Source: an uncultured Thiotrichaceae bacterium (GTDB lineage Bacteria > Pseudomonadota > Gammaproteobacteria > Thiotrichales > Thiotrichaceae). Taken from it: DNA of 35,135 bases. Of the stretch, positions 11,445 to 17,921 are shown piece by piece; within the stretch, counting starts at the first letter, position 1; each line of letters starts with the position of its first letter. The stretch is taken from the NCBI GenBank assembly GCA_902727985.1, contig CACVAY010000049.1:1-35135 (forward strand), given 5' to 3'. Position numbers and translations under genes: made by a program. The notes beneath the pieces are model-generated. The model had not been told where the DNA came from. It was given only the letters and a program-made list of their open reading frames with translations, and did no database searches.

Positions 11445-11927
11445 TTAGATGAATTGCACCTCAACAATTTCATACTCGCGAGTACCACCCGGAGCTTGTA
11501 CGGTTGCAACATCACCTTCTTCTTTGCCAATCAAAGCACGCGCTACAGGTGAAGATACCGCAATCTTGTTTTCTTGGATATCCGCTTCGATATCACCAAC
11601 AATCTGGTACTTCACAACCTCTTCAGTATCAACATCTTCTAACTCAACCGTTGCACCAAAAACCACACGTCCTTCATTACCAGAAGCTAAACTAGCGACC
11701 TCAATAACCTGCGCTGTTGAAAGAATACCTTCAAGCTCTTGAATGCGCCCTTCATTAAAACCTTGTTGCTCACGCGCAGCATGGTATTCCGCATTTTCTT
11801 TCAAATCACCATGTTCACGAGCATCAGAAATAGCTTGTACAATCGTCGGACGCACCACTGATTTTAAATGAGTTAATTCTTCTTTCAGCTTTTCAGCACC
11901 CGTACTGGTTATAGGAGCTCTAACCAT
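11445..11927 (-). CDS. greA: Transcription elongation factor GreA
   Basis: At 160 aa this matches GreA (158 aa in E. coli). It has an N-terminal coiled-coil (about residues 8-75) whose tip holds the acidic pair in [19 protein letters not shown]-terminal FKBP-like domain follows (from about 80, ending [13 protein letters not shown]). GreA enters the RNA polymerase secondary channel and stimulates cleavage of backtracked transcripts. The start codon overlaps the carB stop as TAATG, with AAGGA inside the end of carB, so translation is probably coupled. GreA production would therefore partly follow the pyrimidine/arginine operon. Confidence 0.95.
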
Positions 11928-14900
11928 TATATTTTTCCTTTATGCAAATCTTGTAAACGATAAACCGAACGTATGCATTCATGTGCCATTGCCTGACACA
12001 ATGCCCACGCACCCGCGATAGTCGTAGTATAGGTTACTTTACCTTGTAGGGCTTCACGGCGGATTTCGTAGGAATCCTTAATTGCTTGTTTACCTTCAGT
12101 AGTATTGATAATTAAATCAATTTCACCATTCTTAATCAAATCGACAACGTGCGGCCTACCTTCTTGAACCTTACGGGTCTCGGCACATGCTAAGCCAGCT
12201 TCCATAAGCGCACGTCGAGTACCACGTGTTGCAACTAACTCGAAGCCTTGTTCAATCAACATTTTGGCAATCGGCAAAATGGCTTCGCGATCATGTTCAC
12301 GCACACTGACAAAAGCAGTACCTCCCTCAGGAAATTCAATACTTGCACCACGCTGAGATTTACTAAAGGCTTCAGCAAAGGTTTTGCCAACACCCATCAC
12401 CTCACCCGTAGATTTCATTTCAGGGCCAAGTATCGGATCAACACCAGGGAATTTAATGAATGGGAATACCGCTTCTTTCACAGAATAGTAACCAGGAATC
12501 GTTTCTTCAAGCATACCCTGCTCTTTCAAGGAAACACCCGCCATACAAAGTGCAGCCACTTTCGCCAGTGGCCGACCAATTGCCTTAGATACAAAGGGTA
12601 CTGTACGTGAAGCACGAGGGTTCACTTCTAGCACATAAATATCATCGCCTTTGATCGCAAACTGGGTATTCATTAACCCAACAACACCTAACGCTTTCGC
12701 CATTTTAACAATTTGCTCACGCATGCGATCTTGCAAATCATCCGACAAAGAATAAGGGGGCAATGAACACGCTGAGTCACCTGAGTGAACACCCGCTTGC
12801 TCGATATGCTGCATAATGCCGCCGATTAATACATCTTCGCCATCACAGATTGCGTCGACATCCACTTCGATTGCATCGTCAAGGAAACGATCGAGTAATA
12901 CAGGTGAATCATTAGAAACTTGTACCGCATAGGTCATGTAGTGACGAAGATCTTCTTCGTTGTACACGATTTCCATAGCACGACCACCCAATACATAGGA
13001 AGGCCGTACCACTAACGGATAACCAATTTCTTCCGCTAAACGTACCGCAGATTCAGTATCACGTGCAGTCCGATTCGGTGGCTGTTTCAAACCAAGCTTT
13101 TCGATCATTTGCTGGAAGCGCTCACGATCTTCCGCAAGATCAATGGCATCAGGAGATGTACCAATAATGGGCGCACCATTGTCTTCCAAAGCTTCGGCTA
13201 ATTTAAGAGGCGTCTGACCACCATATTGAACAATCACGCCTTTTGGCTTCTCAAGATCAACAATCTCCAGTACGTCTTCCAAGGTTAATGGCTCGAAATA
13301 TAAACGATCAGAAGTATCGTAATCGGTAGAAACTGTTTCAGGGTTACAATTCACCATAATGGTTTCATAACCGTGATCACGCATCGCAAATGCTGCATGA
13401 ACACAACAATAATCAAATTCGATTCCCTGACCGATACGATTAGGACCACCACCTAAGACAATGATTTTTTCTTTATCTGTTGGCAAGGCTTCACATTCTT
13501 CATCATAAGATGAGTACATATAAGCAGTACTGGTAGAGAATTCGGCTGCACAGGTATCAACACGTTTGTATACCGGACGAACATCTAATTTATGACGGTG
13601 CTTACGCACACTTTTTTCAGACTCATGAAGCAATGTTGCCAAACGCAAATCAGCAAAGCCTTTACGCTTAAGATTAAACATTTCCTGTTTCGAAATATCT
13701 TTAAGAAGGCGGTTTTTCAAACCTTTTTCTAAAGACACAATTTCTTCGATCTGTACCAAGAACCAACGATCAATACTGGTTAAGTCGAAAAGATCATCCA
13801 AAGTCATGCCAAAGCGGAAAGCATCAGCAACATAAAGAATACGTTCACTACTAGCTTTGGTTAGTTCGCTGCGTAGAATGTCCTTTGCATCTTTGGCTTC
13901 AAGGTCTACGCGCTCATTAAAACCTTCAATACCCGTCTCCAAACCTCGTAAAGCTTTTTGCATAGACTCTTGGAACGTTCGACCAATTGCCATAACCTCA
14001 CCAACAGACTTCATCTGTGTGGTCAATAAAGCATCTGCCTGCGGGAATTTTTCAAAAGTGAAACGGGGAATCTTTGTTACCACGTAATCGATACTAGGTT
14101 CAAATGATGCGGGCGTTGCACCACCTGTAATATCATTTTGCAACTCATCCAAGGTATAACCAACAGCAAGTTTTGCGGCGATTTTCGCAATCGGGAAACC
14201 TGTTGCCTTTGATGCTAGTGCTGATGAACGTGATACCCGAGGGTTCATCTCAATGATAACCATACGACCATCATCAGGATTGATTGAGAACTGAACGTTC
14301 GAACCCCCTGTATCAACACCAATCTTACGCAAGACTTTCAATGAAGCATCACGAAGGATTTGGTATTCCTTATCGGTTAGAGTTTGTGCTGGCGCAACGG
14401 TAATCGAATCACCCGTATGGATGCCCATTGGATCAAGGTTTTCGATAGAGCAGATGATAATACAGTTATCAGCTGAGTCACGAACCACCTCCATCTCATA
14501 TTCTTTCCAACCCAATAAAGATTCTTCAAGCAAGACTTCTGTGGTTGGAGACATATCCAGGCCACGCGCCGTAATCTCTTCAAATTCTTCTTGATTGTAG
14601 CCAATACCACCGCCAGAACCCCCCATAGTGAATGAGGGGCGAATAATAATGGGAAAACCAATCTTCTTCTGAATAGCGCGCGCTTCTTCCATGGAATGTG
14701 CCACTTCAGAATTCGCAGAAGACAAACCAATCTCCTCCATGGCAACACGGAATTTTTCACGATCTTCCGCCATGTCGATGGCTTCTTTCTTAGCACCAAT
14801 CATTTCGACATTATGCTTTTCCAGAATACCCTCACGATCAAGATCAAGTGCACAATTCAGTGCCGTCTGCCCCCCCATGGTGGGTAAAAGCACATCTGGC

Positions 14901-15145
14901 TTTTCTTTTTTGATAATGGCTTCAACGGTTTTCCATTCTATAGGCTCGATGTAAATCGCATCTGCCATTTCAGGATCGGTCATAATGGTGGCTGGGTTCG
15001 AGTTCACCAAAATAACGCGATAACCTTCTTCACGAAGCGCCTTACACGCTTGCGCACCTGAATAATCAAATTCACAGGCCTGTCCAATGATAATCGGGCC
15101 GGCACCAATAATTAAAATACTTTCAATATCACTACGTTTAGGCAT
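11927..15145 (-). CDS. carB: Carbamoyl-phosphate synthase large subunit
   Basis: The 1072-aa protein is nearly identical in length to E. coli CarB (1073 aa). It contains two homologous ATP-grasp halves. The first begins [24 protein letters not shown] and forms carboxyphosphate; the second begins [22 protein letters not shown] (about residue 560) and phosphorylates carbamate. The C-terminal MGS-like regulatory domain (from about 935, [15 protein letters not shown]) is where UMP and ornithine act in enterobacteria. The product feeds both arginine and pyrimidine synthesis. The start overlaps carA by 8 bp, so the two subunits are likely made in a fixed ratio. Confidence 0.97.
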
Positions 15146-16286
15146 TTTGGCTCTTGCTCTCGTGCATCATGGAAATAAACTGGTCGAATACTGGGGCAAC
15201 ATCATGTGGCCCTGGGCTTGCTTCAGGGTGTCCTTGGAAACCAATAGCTGGACAATCCGTACGTGAAATACCCTGCAATGATTTATCAAACAACGAACGA
15301 TGTGTTGCTGTAACATTTTCGGGCAAGCTCGCATCATCAATCGCAAAACCATGGTTCTGACTGCTGATCATGACTTTTTGCGTCTCTAAATCCTGAACAG
15401 GATGATTCGCACCATGATGACCGAACTTCATCTTTAAGGTCTTTGCACCACTTGCAAGCCCCAGCAATTGATGTCCCAGACAAATACCAAAGGTCGGTAC
15501 TTTTGTTTCAAGAACCTGTTGAATCGCTGCAATGGCATAATCACAAGGCTCTGGATCACCGGGACCATTTGACAAGAATACGCCATCTGGCTTCATTGCA
15601 AGCACATCCGCCGCTGAGGTTTTGGCTGGAACAACCGTGACATGGCAACCACGATCAACCAACATGCGAAGAATGTTTTTCTTCACGCCAAAATCGTAAG
15701 CAACAACATTGTAATCTGCTGATTCAGCGGTTACCGACTTTTCGTCTTCCTTATTGAGCTCCCAAGAACCTTCAGTCCATTCATAAGTGGCATCAGTAGT
15801 AACTGCTTTAGCCAAATCCATACCCTTCAGACCAGCGAAAGCTTTTGCAGCAGCTAAAGCCGTTTCTGCAGAAGGTGCATCACCAGCAATCACACAACCG
15901 CTTTGTGCTCCTTTTTCACGAAGGATCCTTGTTAGACGACGTGTATCAATATCCGCAATTGCAACAATATTGCGTCGTTCTAAATAATCAGTTAGGGATT
16001 CTTCTGCACGCCAGTTACTGTGCAGTAATGGAACGTCTTTTACGATGAGACCCGCTGCAAAGATTTCATCAGCTTCTTCATCTTCGGTATTGACACCGAC
16101 GTTACCAATATGGGGGTATGTTAATGTAATTAACTGCTTAGCGTATGATGGATCAGTTAATATCTCTTGATACCCGGTCAATGCTGTATTAAATACAACC
16201 TCTCCCACCGACTCTCCATCACAACCAATTGACTCTCCATGAAAGACACTTCCATCTTCCAGAACCAGTATTGCGGACTTTCTCAC
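15138..16286 (-). CDS. carA: Carbamoyl-phosphate synthase small subunit
   Basis: The 382-aa glutaminase subunit has the same length as E. coli CarA. The N-terminal CPSase domain ([17 protein letters not shown] onward) is followed by a class I glutamine amidotransferase with LSNGPGDP, the nucleophile Cys in [11 protein letters not shown], and the His/Glu pair in [10 protein letters not shown]. It supplies ammonia to CarB through the intersubunit tunnel. The start is a GTG at 16286 preceded by AAGAGGTG at 9 nt. That Shine-Dalgarno sequence lies in the loop of a 7-bp hairpin that reaches into the start codon. Transcription crosses a terminator-like hairpin in the leader first. Confidence 0.97.
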
Positions 16287-16330
16287 TTAAGTTCACACCT
16301 CTTAAGTCATATTTATGATTAAAATATGAC
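16285..16330 (-). promoter_or_regulatory. Tandem hairpins over the carA ribosome binding site
   Basis: On the minus strand GTCATATTT pairs with AAATATGAC (16306-16330, 7-nt loop). Next, ACTTAAG pairs with CTTAAGT (16285-16307, 9-nt loop). The second stem includes the first two bases of the GTG start and holds the ribosome binding site AGGTG in its loop. The two stems share two bases, so they compete at the edge. A role in translational control is inferred. Confidence 0.45.
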
Positions 16331-16331
16331 G

Positions 16332-16363
16332 AATACAAAAAACGGGATGTCATCTCATCCCGT
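16332..16363 (-). terminator. Leader terminator (candidate attenuator) of carA
   Basis: On the minus strand ACGGGATG and CATCCCGT pair around a 6-nt loop (16342-16363), followed by six T residues and GTATT. It lies between a good promoter (about 16443-16470) and carA, with no upstream minus-strand gene that it could end, since bioA diverges. An intrinsic terminator in that place is best explained as an attenuator. Confidence 0.75.
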
Positions 16364-16367
16364 CAAA

Positions 16368-16433
16368 TTATGTGTATCTTTTCATGAAAACCAACGAGAC
16401 GTCGATTTCTCCTAACGACGCACAAAGACACAT
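16368..16433 (-). CDS. Putative carA leader peptide, 21 codons
   Basis: ATG 16433 opens a 21-codon frame that begins MCLCASLGEI, ends FMKRYT and stops with TAA (16368-16370), four bases before the terminator stem. In enterobacterial pyrBI and pyrE, a leader frame ending near a terminator lets a ribosome following a UTP-starved, pausing polymerase block the hairpin. The position here fits that scheme. The predicted transcript start is only a few bases before the ATG, so there is no room for a normal ribosome binding site. An internal AGGAG is too far from the next ATG. Translation is therefore unproven. Confidence 0.4.
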   Translation of the reverse strand: MCLCASLGEIDVSLVFMKRYT

Positions 16434-16442
16434 TGGGGGCAT

Positions 16443-16470
16443 ATTTTAGCACTTACTTTCAGTGTGTCTA
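16443..16470 (-). promoter_or_regulatory. Sigma-70 promoter of carA-carB-greA
   Basis: TAGACA (16465-16470, 5 of 6), a 16-bp spacer and an extended -10 TGCTAAAAT (hexamer 16443-16448, 5 of 6) form a strong promoter on the minus strand. The expected transcription start falls in or next to a run of five C residues on the transcript strand (16435-16439). That feature recalls nucleotide-sensing start sites of pyrimidine genes such as pyrC. Confidence 0.7.
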
Positions 16471-16560
16471 TGTAAGATTCATCTTGTGCACAGACTTTTG
16501 CAAAAAATCATACTTTGGTTATTAAAAACAGTTAATTCCTGATGAGTGCTGATACACCAC

Positions 16561-16619: not shown

Positions 16620-17921
16620 ATGTCTCCACAAACACCGACCGAACAGCAATTACAATTTGACCAAGAACATATCTGGCATCCCTATACCAGTATGACCTCT
16701 CCGCTACCTGTCTACCCTGTGGTATCCGCATCGGGTGTGCGTTTAACGCTAGCGGATGGACGTGAGCTTATAGATGGTATGGCATCGTGGTGGTCAGCCA
16801 TTCATGGTTATAACCACCCTGTACTCAATCAGGCTATCACTGAACAGCTCTCAAGAATGTCGCACGTCATGTTTGGTGGCATTACGCATCAACCTGCCAT
16901 TGAACTTGCAGAAACTCTCATCTCAATCACCGCCGATAATCTACAGCATGTATTTTTTGCAGATTCCGGCTCAGTAGGTGTGGAGGTTGCTCTCAAAATG
17001 GCCATACAGTATTGGCATGCTCAAGATAAAACCTCGAAATCTAAAATGCTAACGGTGCGTAATGGCTATCATGGAGATACCTTTGGCGCAATGGCTGTTA
17101 CTGATCCTGAAGGCAGCATGCACAGCCTCTACAAAGATATTCTACCCAAGCACTTTTTTGCTGATGCACCTAATTGCTGGCGTAACGATAATCGCGAAAT
17201 TGCACACAACGCAACTCAACTGCATAAAGTGCTAGAACAGCATCACGATGAAATTGCAGCCATCATCCTTGAACCTATTGTGCAAGGTGCTGGTGGCATG
17301 CGCATTTACTGCCCAGAGTATCTACAAGCTGTCAGAGCCTATTGTGATGAGTATGACGTATTATTAATTCTGGATGAGATCGCAACCGGGTTCGGTCGGA
17401 CGGGAAAACTCTTTGGCTATGAGCATGCGGATATTCAAGCTGATATTTTAGTCGTAGGCAAAGCCTTAACGGGTGGCTATATGACCTTAGCAGCCACTTT
17501 ATGCAGCTCAAAAGTCGCACATGGGATTAGTCAGAACCAGGGCGTATTAATGCATGGCCCCACCTTTATGGCTAACCCACTCGCTTGCAGTGTTGCCAAT
17601 GCCAACCTCGCATTGCTTTTAAACGCCGATTGGCAAAGCAATATCCAGCGCATAGAGCATATGCTTCGCAAAAAACTATCCGTTTGTGGGACTTTACCGA
17701 TGGTTAAAGATGTCAGAGTCATCGGTGCAATTGGAATCATTGAAATGCAGCATCCTGTGGACATGGAAAGCATTCAAAGAGAATTCGTGAATGCAGGTAT
17801 CTGGGTAAGACCCTTTGGCAAACTCGTTTATATGATGCCACCTTACATTATTAGTGATAATGATTTAACAACACTTTGCACATCCATCATCAAAGTAATC
17901 ACTCAGCAATCACCTTCTTAA
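16620..17921 (+). CDS. bioA: Adenosylmethionine-8-amino-7-oxononanoate aminotransferase
   Basis: The 433-aa PLP enzyme (E. coli BioA is 429 aa) converts 8-amino-7-oxononanoate to 7,8-diaminononanoate, with S-adenosylmethionine as amino donor, in biotin synthesis. Typical BioA signatures are HIWHPYTSM near the start, DGMASWWSAIHGYNHP (about 53-67), SHVMFGGITHQPA, and LDEIATGFGRTG with the PLP-binding Asp252. The PLP Lys281 lies in VGKALTGGYMTLA. The SAM-specific WW and HPYTSM motifs separate it from other class III aminotransferases. No other bio gene is in the window, so it is encoded apart from any bioBFCD cluster, divergent from carA. Its stop codon lies at the edge of an inverted-repeat element. 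Confidence 0.95.
   Translation: MSPQTPTEQQLQFDQEHIWHPYTSMTSPLPVYPVVSASGVRLTLADGRELIDGMASWWSAIHGYNHPVLNQAITEQLSRMSHVMFGGITHQPAIELAETLISITADNLQHVFFADSGSVGVEVALKMAIQYWHAQDKTSKSKMLTVRNGYHGDTFGAMAVTDPEGSMHSLYKDILPKHFFADAPNCWRNDNREIAHNATQLHKVLEQHHDEIAAIILEPIVQGAGGMRIYCPEYLQAVRAYCDEYDVLLILDEIATGFGRTGKLFGYEHADIQADILVVGKALTGGYMTLAATLCSSKVAHGISQNQGVLMHGPTFMANPLACSVANANLALLLNADWQSNIQRIEHMLRKKLSVCGTLPMVKDVRVIGAIGIIEMQHPVDMESIQREFVNAGIWVRPFGKLVYMMPPYIISDNDLTTLCTSIIKVITQQSPS

Follow-up and report, generated by a model that had tools for sequence, protein, structure and literature searches.

The window, that is, the whole 35,135-nt stretch of DNA from an uncultured Thiotrichaceae bacterium that was analysed, encodes carA, carB, and greA in succession, alongside a divergent class-III aminotransferase, which we take to be bioA-like (Table 1). 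All elements of the car-operon leader were on the minus strand, between the aminotransferase gene (16620) and the GTG start codon of carA (16286). Specifically, a promoter, a 21-codon ORF, and a strong intrinsic terminator had been described ahead of carA-carB-greA in the original prediction, and this layout was confirmed in the sequence. Its statement that the terminator has no other gene to serve also held, in that the aminotransferase gene upstream of the leader is divergent and the terminator therefore serves no listed gene except carA. The carA and carB genes overlap, and the latter was named from its position and from tblastn matches in relatives, without a family search.

Table 1. Features of the car locus and its leader, in positions of the window
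Feature	Position	Strand	Remarks
Divergent class-III aminotransferase	16620..17921	+	PF00202
Predicted sigma-70 promoter of the car operon	16443..16470	-	TAGACA, 16 nt, TAAAAT, TG before the -10; 10/12 matches
24-codon ORF, same frame and stop as the 21-codon ORF	16368..16442	-	ATG
5′ part of the car leader RNA	16365..16436	-	start placed from the -10 box
21-codon ORF, proposed leader peptide	16368..16433	-	ATG; judged a chance ORF
Terminator hairpin GACGGGATG-AGATGA-CATCCCGTT	16341..16364	-	9 pairs; conserved carA-leader hairpin
Run of six T	16337..16342	-	first two T pair in the stem; G comes next
carA	15138..16286	-	GTG start; PF00988, PF00117
carB	11927..15145	-	ORF; tblastn matches beside carA in relatives
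greA	11445..11927	-	PF03449, PF01272; directly after carB

The terminator hairpin (16364-16341) had a folding energy of -13.3 kcal/mol, and the CCCG of its stem was located immediately 5′ of the six T, which are followed by G. We sampled the regions upstream of carA in 30 loci from the family of the window (the window included), 80 named genomes, and 85 class-wide genomes. The named loci were the best 80 of 595 found, among which Thiothrix, Thiolinea, and Thiotrichaceae genomes had the CarA nearest to that of the window, and the class-wide loci came from the listed portion of 316 carA-bearing genomes, usually with a single locus for each family, so that both samples are biased towards CarA resembling that of the window. 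The named and unnamed sets shared some loci, giving 195 in total and 188 distinct loci. An energy-defined scan placed a terminator within 130 nt upstream of carA in 110 of the 195 loci, as compared with 13, 11, and 9 of 195 in three dinucleotide shuffles and 13 of 193 in a control stretch at -460..-330; with duplicates removed, 106 of the 188 distinct loci retained it. On the opposite strand, the same scan returned a terminator in 19 of 195 loci, 13 of them with CGRG, because the stem is palindromic.

Conservation extended to the letters of the stem. CGAG or CGGG was present at the start of the 5′ arm, or not more than three letters from it, in 92 of the 110 terminators (88 of the 106 distinct ones), while such letters were seen in none or one of the shuffled cases and in none of the 13 terminators of the control stretch. 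Moreover, in a stricter set of 89 car-leader terminators, 74 had CGRG at the start of the stem or no more than three letters away from it; of 232 terminator-like sites in other parts of these loci, a background that includes coding sequence, 7 did. These counts (110/195, 106/188, and 74/89) used energy-defined terminators and not a preset motif. The motif search, from which ten hits were dropped as spurious, did preset the first four letters of the stem, so that the hairpin logo and the first pairs of the covariation test are partly by construction. In the resulting alignment of 79 hairpins, 178 cells showed two-sided change, versus a shuffled mean of 51.5, and the number of pairs with two-sided change was 9, versus 7.8 in the control, a value reached by 87 of 500 shuffles. 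The terminator ahead of the car operon is real and is conserved, partly letter for letter, in many relatives. No Rfam family matched the window and 23 further loci at the gathering score.

Within the genus of the window, which was represented by four loci, only the window had the canonical stem: two members (L003 and L005) had a terminator hairpin with different stem letters, located 13-14 nt downstream of the -10 box, and in the remaining one (L004) no terminator was found upstream of carA. By eye, the arms of the conserved hairpin seemed to be split by a long inserted stretch in another member of the family (L029). We also noted that carA and carB were apparently fused in four genomes (G044, G054, G257, and G399), where an open frame of ~1460-1530 codons ran without a stop. 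The likeliest carA start codon, as chosen by script, was TTG in 66 of the 80 named and 55 of the 85 class-wide loci, the window having GTG, and this prevalence hints at weak initiation at carA.

The promoter had been called good in the original prediction. The site has 10 of 12 matches, and a scan recovered four promoter-like sites in 2 kb where 4.2 were expected, so that the site by itself is no proof; the TRGACA/TAAAAT or TAGAAT-type sequences found ahead of the hairpin in relatives do argue for a promoter at this position. Transcription start sites were placed from the -10 boxes, in the window and in relatives alike. The 5′ part of the predicted leader RNA (16365..16436), taken alone, folded no better than its shuffles, 11.6% of which matched it, and a possible 9-bp antiterminator (16401-16393 with 16364-16356) was not significant, with 6.2% of shuffles equalling it. 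No conserved antiterminator was found among the car leaders compared. Many of these leaders are too short to hold one. Of 117 hairpin loci, 84 distinct ones, including the window, had a strong predicted promoter, and in 20 of these 84 no more than 25 nt separated the -10 box from the stem. Base pairing between the leader and the sequence downstream of the terminator was rejected as a general mechanism, the mean over 83 loci being -7.65 kcal/mol versus -7.76 kcal/mol when permuted.

To describe the spread of the hairpin we used a covariance model, R1, and counted locus matches at E<=0.01 that were upstream of carA and on its strand. The model matched 44 of the 80 named loci, 54 of the 85 class-wide loci, and 22 of the 30 own-family loci, counts that are partly circular because R1 was trained on 79 of these carA loci; one of the own-family matches (L023) was ~300 nt upstream of carA. 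There was no match in 23 named loci, which comprised nine from Enterobacterales, four from Vibrionales, two each from Aeromonas, Thalassotalea, and Colwellia, and one each from Moritella, Agarivorans, Ferrimonas, and Kangiella, the orders being those to which we presume these genera to belong. A match in Agarivorans (E 0.048), ~280 nt upstream of carA, was left uncounted. Other Alteromonadales had the hairpin, namely, Pseudoalteromonas (L039, L042, and L065, E 0.0005-0.0045; L037, E 0.02) and Alkalimonas (L107, E 0.017). A metagenome-assembled genome titled Klebsiella pneumoniae (L110) also carried it, in contrast to Klebsiella michiganensis (L074), and was not counted among the 23, since its CarA, which shares 69% identity with that of the window, is unlike that of Klebsiella; its label is probably wrong.

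Searches of whole genomes with R1 placed the window hairpin second in its own genome at 33.7 bits, a rank that is partly circular and holds for the 150 of 468 first-look candidates that were scored. The top match, at 34.5 bits within the same scored set, was located in the gap between rplT and pheS (L215:1501-1545; G000:C71:43281-43325 +), and the stem type is thus not exclusive to car. Hairpins of this type were present in the rplT-pheS gap of two other genomes of the family (L230 and L246), and they are possibly a pheST attenuator of the lineage. A further match (26.7 bits) was in a stretch between convergent genes, and a weaker one (22.5 bits; L218:1501-1543, G000:C129:35698-35740 +) was between ihfB-like and lapB-like genes, followed by a pyrF-like gene; the latter match may be just the ihfB terminator. 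All of these genes (rplT, pheS, lapB, ihfB, and pyrF) were recognised by eye from their translated starts. None of these places, that is, rplT-pheS, the convergent stretch, and ihfB-lapB upstream of pyrF, could be established as belonging to a pyrimidine regulon. In 16 other genomes, where only part of the first-look candidates was scored and the same circularity applies in part, R1 found the carA leader in 12 and ranked it best in 11, missing it in G088, G140, G143, and a Citrobacter genome (G414).

Outside the training set, we examined a Pseudomonadaceae-like family, this being the family of the one OprF-bearing class genome among 369 and identified by OprF only. R1 matched upstream of carA and on its strand in 30 of 30 such loci (30 of the 39 carA loci found), at E 0.0035 or less and free of the above circularity, so that a stem of the same sequence family as that of the window was present throughout. 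The T-run ended 40-51 nt before carA in all 30. These Pseudomonadaceae-like leaders differed from the window in having other conserved elements in their 5′ part. By eye, a further hairpin-like repeat (TTTAGTGTGTCCACTAAA) was visible close to the predicted start in most of them (L253-L282), and in several CGCAGA/TCTGCG were able to pair around the terminator.

Published work on Pseudomonas describes a carA attenuator with the arrangement seen here, that is, a single promoter, an intrinsic terminator between the start site and carA, and the operon carA-carB-greA (PMC4997734). In P. aeruginosa, carA is reported to lose its pyrimidine response, and to keep its arginine response, once the stem-loop has been removed (PMC4997734). 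In P. syringae, a 3′ end has been mapped immediately downstream of the carA-leader terminator, 45 nt before carA, disruption of the stem-loop raises car expression, and uracil lowers it; arginine raised expression, arginine together with uracil had little effect, and qRT-PCR registered no change (PMC4997734). The same report credits PMC2965389 with having predicted carA attenuation, and we did not find carA mentioned in the latter's main text. Among titles and the beginnings of abstracts in the open-access literature, no report of this hairpin outside Pseudomonas was found. The remark in the original prediction that E. coli carAB is not known to use such attenuation agrees with our findings, and it is Pseudomonas that is reported to do so (PMC4997734).

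Because the window hairpin belongs to the Pseudomonas sequence family and is located in the same place, car attenuation, probably responsive to pyrimidines, is by analogy the best reading of the locus. We consider it reasonably probable that the window carries a carA attenuator of the Pseudomonas kind, independent of a leader peptide and found more widely than in that genus. The reading builds on a terminator with conserved stem letters that is placed between promoter and carA, in leaders that have no conserved leader peptide. The car operon would be transcribed from the promoter at 16470-16443, with a fraction of polymerases released at the terminator (16364-16337) to yield a leader RNA of roughly 100 nt, and the remaining polymerases reading on into carA-carB-greA. 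Termination would then occur, and be regulated, in this organism, with pyrimidine supply as the likely signal if the Pseudomonas findings carry over, and sensing would proceed without a translating ribosome. RNA polymerase itself might act as the sensor, on transcribing the pyrimidine-rich 3′ arm and the T-run; alternatively, a factor that recognises the conserved stem might do so. Counting against this reading are the restriction of the canonical stem to the window within its genus, the lack of a conserved antiterminator, the count of covarying pairs that did not exceed its control (9 versus 7.8), the higher R1 score at rplT-pheS, and the arginine and qRT-PCR results from P. syringae (PMC4997734).

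We weighed several other explanations. The best surviving of them, albeit rather unlikely in our estimate, is a constitutive partial terminator that would do no sensing and would either set how much car mRNA is made per promoter firing or produce a small RNA, as might be expected where no antiterminator is conserved and where, in 20 of 117 hairpins, the 8 nt after the core stem contain just 3 or 4 T. The P. syringae carA leader RNA, P32, has indeed been reported as a small transcript (PMC4997734). Against a terminator without sensing stand the reported loss of the P. aeruginosa pyrimidine response on stem-loop removal (PMC4997734) and the conservation of stem letters rather than of structure alone.

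In Bacillus, PyrR with bound UMP promotes termination in leader RNA. A PyrR that bound the hairpin or the leader here and promoted termination in the same way would share with those attenuators their terminator-based leader control, and pyrR is present in the genome of the window (E 5.2e-61) and in 241 of 369 class genomes. Furthermore, PyrR was absent from all 23 hairpin-less genomes of Enterobacterales, Vibrionales, Aeromonas, Alteromonadales, and Kangiella, and the raw association across 132 taxa gave p = 2e-7 (67 with both, 32 with neither, 17 with PyrR only, and 16 with the hairpin only). In contrast, the 13 independent pairs on the CarA tree that differed in PyrR were split into two concordant, two discordant, and nine ties, and the association may therefore be inherited; for this tree, the hairpin was counted at E<=0.1 in class loci and up to 0.02 in named ones, 50 named loci were used, and 20 own-family genomes (18 with PyrR) were excluded. 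The 85 class loci alone gave p = 0.025 at E<=0.1 and 0.087 at E<=0.01, and the hairpin occurred without PyrR in three Pseudoalteromonas, Alkalimonas, Microbulbifer, and others. In addition, the Rfam search of the window and 23 loci returned no PyrR-binding RNA element at the gathering score and nothing relevant in 16280-16480 at a permissive threshold. The comparison thus leaves dependence on PyrR unsupported, unlike in Bacillus, and we regard control by PyrR as improbable.

Enteric pyrBI and pyrE have attenuators upstream of pyrimidine-synthesis genes, and the window resembles them in having an intrinsic terminator with a T-run upstream of the first gene and an ORF nearby. The original prediction had pointed to this likeness. 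Under such a mechanism, a ribosome on the 21-codon ORF would trail the polymerase and block the hairpin at low UTP. The ORF does end near the stem, its TAA (16370-16368) being three bases, rather than four as had been stated, before the stem as drawn by our scan (16364). Against this stand the lack of any Shine-Dalgarno sequence before the ORF and the position of its start codons, 1 and 10 nt after the -10 hexamer and hence no further downstream than the point where transcription should begin; in addition, 21% of shuffled leaders contained an ATG ORF that was 21 codons or longer and stopped close to the stem. Among the 84 leaders, 13 (the window included) had an ORF reaching the stem, three had one with ATG, and none had one preceded by a Shine-Dalgarno sequence, while 20 were too short, in contrast to the enteric systems. 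In the two congeners L003 and L005, no ORF preceded the terminators. The ORF was thus lost while a terminator hairpin, of other stem sequence, stayed, an outcome that the original prediction had named as refuting its proposal. A carA leader peptide has been stated for P. aeruginosa, which had no conserved counterpart among the window and its relatives, and in P. syringae the authors who cite it could see no codon from which such a peptide would start (PMC4997734). We rejected the leader peptide as a conserved mechanism and consider it very improbable for the window, where the comparison does not support a peptide and the 21-codon ORF looks like a chance reading frame. Of the pyrBI/pyrE-type attenuation that had been proposed, attenuation as such is supported by conservation and by the Pseudomonas case (PMC4997734), while the peptide is not; likewise, of the conservation in relatives suggested as a check, that of the terminator was found (106/188) and that of the ORF was not. 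A leader ORF of this kind should not be taken as functional without comparing relatives.

The least credible explanation is GreA autoregulation by a hairpin moving with greA, as in the E. coli greA leader: greA followed carB in 93 of the 100 loci that were fetched (of the seven without it, four were cut by the end of a contig or stretch) and was, by coordinates, elsewhere in the hairpin-less Enterobacterales, Aeromonas, Vibrio, and Moritella genomes checked, but it was beside carB without any hairpin in two Thalassotalea, two Colwellia, Agarivorans, Ferrimonas, and Kangiella, and the E. coli greA stem differs in sequence by eye. Linkage to greA was accordingly rejected as a predictor of the hairpin, given these hairpin-less Alteromonadales and Kangiella. 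The greA and rnk leaders share terminator-based leader control with the window (PMC2965389), ahead of other genes. The earlier suggestion that GreA would come under the same control stands to the extent that greA, positioned after carB, would probably be co-transcribed.

Under the favored reading of a peptide-independent attenuator, the window also differs from E. coli carAB, although the operon and the presumed signal are the same. E. coli carAB P1 is controlled by UTP-sensitive reiterative transcription, for which the start-site type is a purine followed by a T-run (PMC6245113). The start region of the window (ATGCCCCCAATG) has no T-run, RTTT being absent by eye from ATGCCCCCAATGTGTC, and its candidate control element is the terminator. 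Purine-TTT was present near the predicted start in 30 of 43 hairpin-less car promoters (shuffled mean 4.7) and in 37 of 84 with the hairpin (shuffled mean 5.9), and the same test further downstream gave 7 and 4 for the two promoter sets. Hairpin and start-site T-run overlapped in distribution, the window having the former and lacking the latter. Purine-TTT car start sites (such as AATTTGCC) occurred beyond Enterobacterales, in L044-L108 and others, a distribution that suggests an early origin of UTP-sensitive initiation at car.

A wider proposition, which we put forward tentatively and consider possible although doubtful, is that the CGRGR-stem hairpin was ancestral to much of the Gammaproteobacteria, that it senses pyrimidine nucleotides while the car leader is being transcribed, without ribosome, leader peptide, or obligatory PyrR, and that Enterobacterales, Vibrionales, Aeromonas, and several Alteromonadales have lost it and would use other car control. 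The more interesting part of our results is the breadth and letter-level conservation of the hairpin, together with the absence of a matching Rfam family. They raise the questions of why the letters, and not the shape alone, of the car terminator have been kept across many Gammaproteobacteria, and how leaders with not more than 25 nt between -10 box and stem might answer to pyrimidines without a peptide. If the proposition is true, these nucleotide-sensing attenuators would constitute a family that is new, with either RNA polymerase itself or a factor that recognises the CGRGR stem reading the hairpin.
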